DNA from: Prevotella melaninogenica
GTDB taxonomy: Bacteria; Bacteroidota; Bacteroidia; Bacteroidales; Bacteroidaceae
Assembly: GCF_018128065.1 (NCBI RefSeq)
Contig: NZ_CP072359.1
Coordinates: 1,364,001 to 1,428,000 of the forward strand
Length of the DNA: 64,000 bases
Direction: 5' to 3'
The notes below the pieces were generated by a model. That model worked only from the letters and a program-made list of their open reading frames with translations, was not told the origin of the DNA and ran no database searches. Made by a program: the position numbers and the translations under genes. Position 1 is the stretch's first letter. Every line of letters begins with the position of its first letter. Of the stretch, positions 4,734-60,169 are shown piece after piece.

Positions 4734-4791
4734 AAGTCCACCTTAATACTACTTCTAATTGTCAAATAAATTCACAAACAGAATTTCAATT

Positions 4792-4890
4792 GATGCTTAA
4801 ATGGGCTTCAATTAACGCCCAATTGACTTGTAAAAGATGCCCTTTAAGCACCTTACTAACGCCCTTTTGAAGTCCAATTAGGCACCTTTT
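4792..4890 (+). repeat. 22-bp periodic GCCC-type intergenic array, copy A
   Basis: Unit starts fall at 4795 (GCTT), 4817, 4839 and 4861 (GCCC), each exactly 22 bases apart, and the copy closes with GGCACCTTTT near 4881. It aligns along its length with the copies at 11510-11602, 23282-23375 (opposite strand) and 59844-59916 (opposite strand). It lies between two gene ends (AraC and RelA/SpoT). Confidence 0.85.
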
Positions 4891-5065
4891 GAAACGCACT
4901 TTCATAACATTCTGATAATATGATAGTTACAACACTATTAAAAAGTGCATTATTTCACCTTAAATTCAGCTTTTACAATAAAACTTTTGTAATAATATTT
5001 CACAACTTTGCACAATAAATACATAGATGCCTGATCTACCAAAATATACAAAAATAGGATTGCAA

Positions 5066-11440: not shown

Positions 11441-11509
11441 ATATGCTGTTTCTAACAAACAGAAATCTCCTCTTTTGTCCTGATTTTTCACACTCTCTTT
11501 TTTCAAGGA

Positions 11510-11602
11510 GTGCTTAATAGCACTTGAATTAACGCCCAAATGACTTGTAAAAGATGCCCTTTTGAACTCTTACTAACGCCCTTTTGAAGTCCAATTAAGC
11601 AC
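11510..11602 (+). repeat. 22-bp periodic GCCC-type intergenic array, copy B
   Basis: The element is bounded by perfect inverted ends, GTGCTTAAT (11510-11518) and ATTAAGCAC (11594-11602). Internal unit starts at 11512, 11534, 11556 and 11578 are exactly 22 bases apart. It lies between the ends of rho and kdsB. This is the most regular of the four copies. Confidence 0.88.
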
Positions 11603-11761
11603 CTTTTATTTCATGAGTCTGTAACAGATTGATGCTTAGTTGGTTATGAAAGTCGAAAAATATACCGTTTTATGATGTTTTTAACGGTAGGTTAATGGTT
11701 TTATTTGTAATAAATTTTCTTATAAAAAACACAGCTTTCTTCTTTCATAATCTGTTTTCTT

Positions 11762-15199: not shown

Positions 15200-15280
15200 T
15201 GCCATTGTGTTTACGCCCAGCACGAGTTGTGCTGTTGGTAAGCACCATGCGTGTTGAGACCGTACACAGAATGTGTTTAC
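15200..15280 (+). repeat. 22-bp periodic palindrome array, site 1
   Basis: Three short palindromes have centres at 15226, 15248 and 15270, exactly 22 bases apart: CAGCAC-N5-GTGCTG (15218-15234), AGCAC-N5-GTGTT (15241-15255) and ACACA-N3-TGTGT (15264-15276). A half unit lies at 15201-15214. The array sits between the ends of rlmH and gph. Confidence 0.8.
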
Positions 15281-19849: not shown

Positions 19850-19930
19850 TATAGCAATGTGTTTAACCCTCAACACCAATCGTGTTGAGCATGAGCACCA
19901 CTTGTGTTGGGCAACAACACATTGCTTGAA
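19850..19930 (+). repeat. 22-bp periodic palindrome array, site 2
   Basis: CAACAC-N5-GTGTTG (19871-19887, centre 19879) and AGCAC-N5-GTGTT (19894-19908, centre 19901) are 22 bases apart. Weaker units sit at the same spacing on both sides (near 19857 and 19923). It is the same class as the site at 15200. It lies between tetR (upstream) and the end of galE; the rest of 19684-20047 shows nothing recognisable. Confidence 0.75.
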
Positions 19931-23237: not shown

Positions 23238-23281
23238 TAACTATCAGCAATTCAGCTGATTACAGAGCCGTATTTTAAAAG

Positions 23282-23375
23282 GTGCTTAATAAGAGTTCAA
23301 AAGAGCCTTAGTTAGCGTCCAAAAGGGCATCTTTTACAAGCCAATTGGGCGTTAATTCAAATGCTATTAGGCATC
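23282..23375 (-). repeat. 22-bp periodic GCCC-type intergenic array, copy C
   Basis: This is the reverse complement of copies A and B, with the same order of internal units (GCCC blocks about every 22 bases) and the same ends (GATGCC...AAGCACC in the element's own direction). It lies between the plug gene end and purM. The rest of 23095-23645 holds no gene that can be supported. Confidence 0.82.
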
Positions 23376-23645
23376 TATTGACATGCTGTATGTGAATTTA
23401 TTTTACAAACAAACATGCGTTAAATATTTTATGTATGGTTATTTGTCATCAAAATCATGTAACCTATTTGCTAAAGATTACCAAAAAGAATCATCAACTT
23501 ATCAAAGAAGATAGCAGCTAAAAATCTTTTTTCGATAGAAAGTCAAAACTACAATGAAATTCGGCAACTCTTTTTTCAAATAATAAAAGCCCTCTTTTGA
23601 CTGAAATTTATGCTTTAATTCAGCTGATAATCAACAAATATTAGC

Positions 23646-33360: not shown

Positions 33361-33430
33361 CTCAAAAAATATTAAATGATATACATCAAACTCTTAATAT
33401 TTGATTTAATTTATCTAAAAAGTTGGCTCT

Positions 33431-33742
33431 ATAACCATCATTTGCTGTTGTGCTGATACTCTGCACATGTGGTGCAGGTGCTTAGCACATATGGTGCGGA
33501 GGGTTAACACCACATGTGCGGAAGGTTAAATTCACTATGATATATGGATGACAGGGGATGAATTGTGAGCAAAATGTTGTAATACTAAGAATAAACAGGA
33601 GATGTGTAGAAGCTTGTTTAGCGAAAACTCCTTTATACTTGTAGGTTAATCCGTCTTCATCTGTTCAGTCATAAAACCTTTAAACATAGGAACGCTGGCA
33701 AGGAAAAAACTATTTACCCACACGATTCGTTATAGAGCCAAA
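33431..33742 (+). repeat. Long dispersed repeat, copy 1 (inverted partner at 52664-52950)
   Basis: By eye, about 290 bases align with the reverse complement of 52664-52950 over their full length with scattered changes and small gaps. Shared stretches include GATGACAGGGGATGAATTG, GAGATGTGTAGAAGCTTG and CCCACACGATTCGTTATAGA. The first part is the palindrome array. No coding frame is kept in both copies. It fills most of the gap between the MORN-like gene end and the dehydratase start. Confidence 0.88.
33461..33520 (+). repeat. 22-bp periodic palindrome array, site 3
   Basis: Centres at 33469, 33491 and 33513 are exactly 22 bases apart: CTGCAC-N5-GTGCAG (33461-33477), GCAC-N5-GTGC (33485-33497) and CAC-N5-GTG (33508-33518). 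It is embedded in the left end of long repeat copy 1. Confidence 0.85.
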
Positions 33743-33755
33743 AAGTTCTATTACT

Positions 33756-44260: not shown

Positions 44261-44346
44261 CGAGATTTCTTTTCATGAACAAAAATATTTATTTTCATGA
44301 AGAAAAATATTTATTTACGTGAAAAAAAGAATTTATTTTCATGAAA
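44261..44346 (-). repeat. 22-bp tandem repeat with TTTCATGAAA palindromes upstream of the GH25 gene
   Basis: Four units have CATG (or CGTG) centres at 44275.5, 44297.5, 44319.5 and 44341.5, exactly 22 bases apart. Each holds a TTTCATGAAA-like palindrome in an AT-rich unit. The array lies 60-140 bases upstream of the GH25 start and overlaps a -7 box, so it may bind a regulator. Confidence 0.85.
44280..44287 (-). promoter_or_regulatory. Putative promoter -7 box of the GH25 gene
   Basis: TATTTTTG on the minus strand lies inside the 22-bp repeat array. Other units have a G instead of the last base of the box's complement, so only this unit gives a match. Confidence 0.4.
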
Positions 44347-44572
44347 ATAAATTAGCATACCATCTAAATAAGTTGAAAATATGATGTTTCTTTAGATACT
44401 ATTGACTACAAAAAAGAAGACTATTAAACACTACTTACAACCATAGTCAAGCACCTTTATTCTTGTATAAATTTTATAATAATAGATTGAAAATCAAAGG
44501 AGTAATTTAACTTTGTTTACTAACTACTTAAAACATAAGAGGTCAGCACCAAACAGGATATTGTATAAAACA

Positions 44573-52663: not shown

Positions 52664-52950
52664 TGGTTCTATAACGAATCGTGTGGGTAAATAGTTTTTC
52701 CCTTGCCAGCGTTCCTGTGTTTAATGGCTTTATGGCTGAACAGAAGAATACGGAGTAATCTACGAATATAAAGGGGGTTAAACTAAACAAGCTTCTACAC
52801 ATCTCCTGTTTAATCTTAGTATTACAACGTTTTGCTCACAATTCATCCCCTGTCATCCTTATATCATAGTGAAGTTAACCATCCGCACATGTGGTGTTAA
52901 CCATCCGCACCACATGTGCTAAGCATCCGCACCACAGAAAATGATGGTAA
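52664..52950 (-). repeat. Long dispersed repeat, copy 2 (inverted partner of 33431-33742)
   Basis: Its reverse complement aligns with 33431-33742 from end to end. The order is kept: the CCCACACGATTCG block (here near 52673-52688), the GTGTAGAAGCTTG block (52789-52802), the GATGAATTG block (about 52840) and the palindrome array at the far end. Confidence 0.88.
52884..52940 (+). repeat. 22-bp periodic palindrome array, site 4
   Basis: Centres at 52891 and 52913 (GCAC-N5-GTGT at 52885-52897; GCAC-N5-GTGC at 52907-52919) and a half unit centred near 52935 are 22 bases apart. It is the end part of long repeat copy 2. Confidence 0.8.
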
Positions 52951-52975
52951 ACATTCACAAACATTGTATGAAATA

Positions 52976-53108
52976 AGACTTTAAAACATCCTTTTCCGCT
53001 GGCTAAAGTGTAAAACGCTAAAACTAAACTAAACAAATAACTTCTTTCTATGAATACAGCAGATATTATTCTAATTGGGGCAAACAACCCACACGGTTCA
53101 TTATAGAG
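52976..53108 (+). repeat. Degenerate partial third copy of the long repeat
   Basis: CGCTGGC near 53000 and CCCACACGGTTCATTATAGAG (53088-53108, written here with two changes against the other copies) resemble the right end of copy 1, in the same direction. It faces copy 2 as an inverted neighbour. The stretch 53109-53364 shows nothing recognisable. Confidence 0.5.
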
Positions 53109-53364
53109 ATGCTTTTTTAGATAGGTGAACTGTTTTTTCAGATTCAACACCTATATTTAAATTATCAATATAAAAGTTGAGATTAAACTCAAAACAGAAT
53201 AAAGAGAACTACTTAAAACAAAAATTAAAAACAGAATTGAAGATAGAGAAAATAACGTTTTAGATATAAATAAATCTGAATTCAGTAGAAAACTACCTCA
53301 AAAGATGAGTTTAGTAGTCATTATAGTTAATTAAATGTTAAAGCAATATCAATCTAAACAAAAA

Positions 53365-59580: not shown

Positions 59581-60169
59581 TGTAACTAACTTAGACTAAT
59601 GTTTGACAACTATCATACTAAACATGGCAATAAAATGATTCTTCTGTTAAATGTGTAGACGACTTGTTGTGTAGAGAAGAGTTGAAAAAACTTTTCCTTT
59701 CTAATATTAGAAAAGATGATATGGGTTTGAAAAAACATTACATAACTTGCAGGTAAATTCCTTTTAAAACAGTCCAAAACAAGCATAAAAAGTAGGTTTG
59801 TAACTAAAACAATATCAAACGGTTACAAGAGTCTCTTGCAAAAGATGCTTAATTGGGCCTCAAAAGGGCGTTAGTAAGACTTCAAAAGGGCATCTTTTGC
59901 AAGTCGATTGGGCATCTTTTAGGAGCCAAATGACCATATATAGATTTTAAGATAGGCGAAAATAATTTACACATCTAAACATACAAAGTGGCAAATTATT
60001 CTTTAGAAAGCAAGAAACATTATTATGAATAATATGGCACTATCTGCATGTTTAATTCAGTCATTTAATTGTTTATCCTTCCTTTATGACTATCTGAAAA
60101 ACATACTCATACTATATCAATATATAAGCGTATATAAGTTTTGTCTATGCACTTCATAAAAACAGATAG
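59581..60169. other. Gene-free stretch with one perfect palindrome and repeat copy D
   Basis: Apart from repeat copy D, this stretch holds only the 16-base perfect palindrome TTTCTAATATTAGAAA at 59698-59713. No coding frame with a promoter or ribosome site was seen. Confidence 0.5.
59844..59916 (-). repeat. 22-bp periodic GCCC-type intergenic array, copy D
   Basis: Reading the plus strand, GGGC blocks end at 59869, 59891 and 59913, 22 bases apart. The outer end AAAAGATGCTTAATT matches the AAGCACC end of the other copies in reverse. The first unit of copies A-C is missing. Confidence 0.8.

Follow-up and report, generated by a model that had tools for sequence, protein, structure and literature searches.

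Four intergenic arrays of short palindromes, A to D, lie in the window, by which we mean the whole 64-kb stretch of DNA analysed. Array A is flanked by convergent genes for a SPOUT methyltransferase and an HAD hydrolase, and in all four arrays units of the form RCAC-N5-GTGY follow each other at 22 bp (Table 1). The arrays were found where a preliminary description of this DNA, made from its letters, had placed them, and the three unit centres of array C agree with it to the base. The exact two-unit pattern RCAC-N5-GTGY-N9-RCAC-N5-GTGY gave six matches in the window, as against a maximum of 0 across 100 shuffles. When up to two core mismatches were allowed, a spacing of 22 was detected at seven places with at most one mismatch, and the spacings 20, 21, 23 and 24 gave no place in the window with at most one core mismatch.

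Table 1. Positions of the 22-nt arrays, the TIR elements and the GCCC-type repeats in the window
Feature	Positions	Strand	Description
GCCC-type interspersed repeat	4759-4894, 11501-11624, 23260-23408, 59793-59913		four copies; 22-nt sub-period
Array A	15207..15276	.	stand-alone, 22-bp phased; three RCAC-N5-GTGY units and a left half-site
Array A units	15220-15232, 15242-15254, 15264-15276		centres 15226, 15248, 15270
Array B	19853..19926	.	stand-alone; two full units, then one that has a single core mismatch
Array B full units	19873-19885, 19895-19907		
TIR element (MITE) copy with array C	33425..33739	+	right TIR at 33716-33739; of the left end, GGCTCTATAAC remains
Target duplication of array C copy	33417-33424, 33740-33747		perfect, 8 bp, AAAAAGTT
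Array C	33463..33519	.	three units, centres 33469, 33491, 33513; within TIR element
Fifth array	44265..44352	.	22-nt period, different sequence; four units, consensus ATTTATTTTCATGAAAAAAAAT
TIR element copy with array D	52665..53110	-	intact TIR 52665-52688; degenerate TIR near 53089-53110
Array D	52885..52919	.	three units, of which the third is broken; within second copy of the TIR element of array C

P. falsenii has a second family of arrays, TTTACACGTAAATAAATATTTC, which the fifth array of the window resembles; both have a period of 22. The GCCC-type interspersed repeat resembles the CAAAAGGTGCCCTTTTG array of P. histicola. It had been suggested to form one family with the palindrome arrays; the 22-nt period is indeed common to both, but the GCCC copies are only weakly palindromic and their core differs from GTG/CAC. 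CRISPR arrays consist of identical repeats with unique spacers of about 30 nt between them. A CRISPR array was rejected as an identification of the palindrome arrays, of which the 22-nt units are without long spacers and mutually unlike.

Number and anatomy of the arrays in the genome

For the whole genome (3.34 Mb in two contigs), the paired-unit pattern gave 218 matches when the gap was left free (0-30), and likewise 218 pairs when it was fixed at the 22-nt spacing. Because the two counts are equal, all genome pairs were taken as 22-spaced. A control pattern read backwards gave 0 matches in the genome with free and fixed gap alike, and the genome-wide excess of 22-base spacing foreseen from the window was thus confirmed. 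Among the matches listed, those for contig C1 form 60 arrays: 49 are classed as non-MITE, the class being set by MITE sequence, and the other 11 belong to a repeated TIR element. By extrapolation, the genome total is estimated at roughly 160 arrays, that is, well over a hundred intergenic loci. The genome arrays are high-copy, intergenic and without TIRs as judged from MITE-sequence classing and a genome TIR search, one of them (L091) being doubtful in this respect.

In register, the arrays are composed of 17-bp inverted sites GTGY-N9-RCAC with 5 bp between them, usually three or four per stand-alone array. Equivalently, dyads recur every 11 bp and the full unit is 22 bp, which corresponds to two helical turns. 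The surroundings of the 49 non-MITE arrays of C1 are weakly conserved, part of the left consensus being taTTATaAt.a..ATaA.ga.tcttTcTT.ccaT (capitals, at least 65%). In 47 of these 49 the array is not spanned by any ORF of at least 80 aa; L083 and L100 have one. Even spacing of arrays along C1 was not found (gap CV 1.24 versus 0.97 for random places), and a regular chromosome lattice is disfavoured by this unevenness.

Distribution and core conservation among relatives

At least one match to the fixed pattern was detected in 40 of 398 genomes of the genus, and none in 358. The highest counts were 267, 262 and 235 for the genomes G208, G222 and G424, followed by 218 for the genome studied here, 112 for G386, 82 for G339, 76 for G456 and 50 for G290. 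Free-gap counts for named relatives were 32 in P. jejuni, 25 in P. multiformis, 19 in P. histicola and 2 each in P. veroralis and P. vespertina. Of 59 genomes that belong to other families in the order, none gave a count above 3, the highest reached.

Arrays A and B were both found at matching places in three sister genomes (G424, G222 and G208). The systematic comparison was made with 470 kb of G222, in which 17 of the 49 non-MITE arrays of C1 had an orthologous neighbourhood, and an array was present at the orthologous place in 14 of these 17 neighbourhoods. At L098 and L111, the G222 sequence next to the aligned flank showed no array; at L097, an array adjoins one aligned flank of a rearranged G222 site and was left unscored. 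Core conservation was scored solely where the array could be aligned, initially for 12 arrays and then also for L031 and L100, making 14. In the 12 arrays, the GTG/CAC core positions were identical between the two genomes at 162 of 162, as against 92 of 135 positions for the N5 spacers, 99 of 139 for the N9 spacers (together 191/274) and 1369 of 1973 for the flanks. Spacers and flanks diverge about equally, at about 70% identity, and since the spacers drift at the flank rate, the cores are not explained by general conservation or gene conversion. The R/Y positions were identical at 41 of 54, all 13 changes being transitions and none a transversion. Core triplets were intact at 54 of 54 in the 12 alignments, versus 30 of 58 for CAC/GTG triplets in the flanks. 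With L100 (core 18/18) and L031 (15/18 when anchored on the right flank; in G222 one unit of it is without the left half and the core is partly gone), the total for the 14 arrays was 195 of 198.

The number of units differs by a whole 22-mer between the two genomes at L102, L106 and, less cleanly, L110, and array B has one additional 22-nt unit in G424. The cores are not immutable, as judged from one further site, X, where the genome studied here is without an array and one core in G424 is broken from GTG to TTG. Selection on structure had been proposed for the arrays from the window. This holds for the spaced and symmetric cores, and was not found for pairing between the arms, as described below.

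On balance we consider it probable that the arrays represent rows of inverted half-sites, bound cooperatively along one face of the DNA by a putative dimeric or oligomeric protein, with the cores under purifying selection. Protein binding on one face, already raised in the preliminary description, is the best fit to the core identity seen in the scored arrays beside spacers and flanks that drift. The putative sequence-specific protein would recognise GTGY half-sites (mirror RCAC) as inverted pairs and would contact several 22-bp units cooperatively. Units would be gained and lost singly via tandem duplication and deletion, and purifying selection would keep the 3-bp cores while the spacers drift. 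Instead of controlling one regulon, such arrays may have an architectural or insulating role in intergenic DNA.

A rather unlikely alternative, which nevertheless accounts for several of the observations, is a selfish or neutral interspersed repeat in the style of REP, BOX or PINSR, non-autonomous, formerly spread by some enzyme recognising the half-sites, and of no use to the host. The sharp difference in copy number among species, from 267 in G208 to 0 in 358 of the 398 genomes, agrees with such a repeat, as do the presence/absence difference at site X, the carriage of arrays by MITE copies, and the weakly conserved flanks of the 49 arrays, which suggest a common ancestral unit. Decaying transposon relics, however, should lose their cores, whereas here the arrays are orthologous in most of the comparable neighbourhoods and the cores are almost completely kept. 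A Y1 transposase (PF01797) is moreover absent from 10 of the 12 other genomes with at least nine pairs, being present only in G393 and G011. A mobiliser of RAYT type was initially suggested by the detection of PF01797 in three of 17 genomes, the one studied here and G011 among them; RAYT/IS200 was then rejected, PF01797 being present in 19 of 40 comparison genomes that have no fixed-pattern pair and, in this larger set, in only one (G393) of the 11 with at least nine pairs. The sole PF01797 place in the genome studied here is a broken Y1 (IS200/RAYT-type) transposase at G000:C1:838488-838854 (L196, L199).

Pairing, folding and the TIR element

Pairing between palindrome arms was analysed for a set of 112 distinct GTGY-N9-RCAC and 76 distinct RCAC-N5-GTGY palindromes. 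The observed and expected Watson-Crick frequencies at the N9 mirror positions were 0.54/0.52 (pair 4-14), 0.47/0.52, 0.25/0.32, 0.55/0.57 and 0.27/0.29, and those at the N5 mirror positions were 0.55/0.51, 0.22/0.33 and 0.41/0.43, indicating no complementary covariation in either class. The compensatory arm changes looked for on the basis of the preliminary description were thus absent from both classes. Mutual information was above that of shuffles at three mirror pairs (p=0.0005, 0.0135 and 0.017), but Watson-Crick agreement was below expectation there, indicating that this dependence is not base pairing. Adjacent units were directly alike (0.49 vs 0.40, p=0.0002) and not inversely alike (0.388 vs 0.387), which points to tandem duplication of units. 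No covariation was detected either among 15 distinct 17-mers, a small set, of the array family of P. falsenii and P. aurantiaca.

Compared with dinucleotide shuffles, six strands from the four sites folded better (z -2.6 to -5.1). For the 49 arrays, the mean folding z was -2.87 against plain shuffles and -2.10 when the full-unit core positions were kept. Against chimeras carrying the array's own cores and spacers from other arrays, no folding excess was observed for the 49 arrays (mean z +0.10, p=0.56). Since the excess vanishes against core-matched chimeras, the folding is a by-product of the inverted cores, and an RNA or cruciform structure is not supported for the arrays.

As the other reading of the arrays, a row of small hairpins in RNA had been offered beforehand, and tandem hairpins of this kind in 3' UTRs might affect termination or mRNA stability. 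The folding above shuffles is in line with such an RNA element, and so is the gene context of the 48 non-MITE arrays of C1 that have two neighbours, where convergent junctions outnumber divergent ones, 14 to 5, a small excess. The same arrays show no orientation bias to genes (15 ++, 14 --), and Rfam gave no match in the window at gathering scores. Together with the lack of compensatory change and the equality with core-matched chimeras, these results largely refute the RNA element, which we regard as very improbable.

Arrays C and D lie in copies, 90% identical, of one repeated element and are therefore not independent of each other. The array-bearing element is about 468 bp long and has about 26 copies in the genome, and its 24-nt TIRs, GGYTCTATAACGAATCGTGTGGGT, gave 41 genome matches within 3 mismatches. 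Both TIR ends were present in 15 of the 26 element loci scanned; the copies with C and D have each one intact end and one reduced or degenerate end. Among the 15 two-ended copies, the 8-bp target duplication was perfect in five, matched at 7 of 8 bases in four more and was not seen in six; no perfect duplication was seen for the copy with array D. P. jejuni, P. histicola and G222 have a shorter, array-free form (about 224 bp) with the TIRs of the MITE, which suggests that the MITE acquired its array from outside and did not give rise to it. Arrays C and D are passengers of the MITE. A possible parent element was noted in P. multiformis (L294 2483-4142), where a TIR of the MITE family adjoins an ORF of 451 aa with transposase similarity below the cutoff; no second TIR was found within 6 kb, which were partly masked.

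That all arrays are MITE remnants, with a minisatellite inside the MITE as in BrickBuilt, would suit the placement of C and D and the array L091, classed as stand-alone, which may be a decayed copy (MITE-like flank letters; a 3-mismatch TIR about 365 bp off, at C1:930357), but 49 of the 60 listed C1 arrays, A and B included, are classed outside the element (L091 doubtful) and the array-free form has matching TIRs, which leaves this the least probable of the explanations considered.

Other 22-nt families, proposed docking sites and known systems

Arrays of 22-nt period with other cores were detected in related species. The abundant repeat of about 200 bp in P. falsenii is a 22-nt phased palindrome array with flanks, its core being of AAAA/TTTT type, and similar arrays are found in P. 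aurantiaca. In a palindrome scan of 173 kb of P. falsenii, lag 22 was the commonest with 10 arrays, lag 33 followed with 9, and no other lag from 16 to 32 exceeded 4; a signal at lag 33 is expected if dyads recur every 11 bp. A pair of AAAAG-N7-YTTTT sites with a free gap of 0-30 gave 97 matches on both strands in 13 of 18 genomes, and none in the genome studied here. By lengths counted by eye, 92 of the 97 were 38-40 nt, which, allowing for the register of the A/T tracts, amounts to a spacing of 22 nt, four were 60-61 nt (spacing 44), and one was off. Among 20 loci of this or related type, 18 were without an ORF of at least 90 aa across the array. In an agnostic palindrome scan of 14 named Prevotella loci, seven arrays were at lag 22, as against at most two at other lags of 16-33, and the same scan, applied to 289 kb in 20 loci of the order's other families, gave no lag-22 signal (2 vs 0-3). 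The scan is insensitive to GCAC arrays, and 400 kb of G222 yielded a single array at lag 22; it misses most of them because their linkers are not palindromic.

An AT-type 22-nt array is nearly identical in P. jejuni, Hoylesella loescheii, P. veroralis and P. pallens (L318-L321), where it lies roughly 190-260 bp upstream of a hu-hig gene; the gene on the far side of the array is not the same throughout. HU-HIG as a partner protein was not supported: 40 further hu-hig loci gave no lag-22 excess in the palindrome scan (3 vs 1-7 at other lags of 18-30), and two of the three lag-22 matches look by eye like tRNA genes. Among 20 hu-hig loci of the genome studied here and G424, GCAC pairs were detected only in L387, about 2 kb from the gene. 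The array of the four species is one ancestral site, and its proximity to hu-hig may be due to chance. HU-HIG (PF18291) genes number 65 in G424, versus 6-10 in the genome studied here, G222, G208 and G386. Of 14 hu-hig loci of G424 (L374-L387), the three used as queries align with the rest along stretches of several hundred bases up to about 2.9 kb, which suggests an amplified cassette.

The several families might tentatively be united as one docking-array system of Prevotella (GTG/CAC, AAAA/TTTT, ACGTG and others), each with its own diverged protein and all with one 22-bp, two-dyad geometry because the proteins would oligomerise alike; PINSR would then be one of these families. If the arrays are indeed rows of cooperatively bound half-sites, an estimated well over a hundred intergenic loci in an oral-type bacterium would be conserved docking sites for a DNA-binding protein, and a published but unexplained repeat, PINSR, would gain a shared architecture. 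The half-site rule would then make a long-standing repeat directly usable as bait.

With respect to geometry, the operators of lambda type are comparable: in these triple operators, several 17-bp inverted sites lie about two turns apart and are bound cooperatively. The present arrays differ in being distributed over an estimated well over a hundred intergenic places per genome, instead of one promoter region, and in their strict spacing of 22. REP/BIME elements with a RAYT transposase likewise form species-specific families of many short intergenic palindromes. In contrast to these, the arrays show exact tandem 22-bp phasing, no covariation of arms and no associated Y1 transposase.

Within the literature searched, two earlier reports were relevant, those on PINSR and BrickBuilt. 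PINSR is described, in the available part of the report, as an intergenic repeat of 188 bp that lacks TIRs and occurs 177 and 184 times in two strains of P. intermedia, with about three quarters of its sites common to both strains, and with its function unexplained (Naito et al. 2015; PMC4755523). The arrays described here resemble this repeat in being intergenic, high-copy and, by classing, without TIRs, and they share sites between species (14/17) as PINSR does between strains. PINSR was also found in P. nigrescens, P. falsenii and P. disiens, P. falsenii being positive by PCR, and P. aurantiaca was PCR-tested and is not among the positives of that part of the report (PMC4755523). As judged from species, copy number, length and place, the P. 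falsenii repeat is probably PINSR; its core is AAAA/TTTT, as against GTG/CAC here. The presence of arrays in P. aurantiaca, in spite of its absence from those PCR positives, would fit drift of sequence under a kept geometry. Palindromes and a 22-nt period are not mentioned in the same part of the PINSR description (PMC4755523).

Sites C and D have their closest counterpart in the BrickBuilt MITE of Porphyromonas gingivalis, given in the accessible portion of its report as having a 23-nt unit, IS5-type TIRs and 1-22.8 units (PMC4596501). Both are intergenic MITEs with an internal tandem repeat, a leader and a tail, and unit number varies by copy; the element described here differs in its 22-nt units, its other TIRs and its 8-bp target duplications, and most arrays are classed outside the MITE. 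The class of array has thus been described in part already, and the shared geometry and the selection on half-sites appear to be new within the literature searched.
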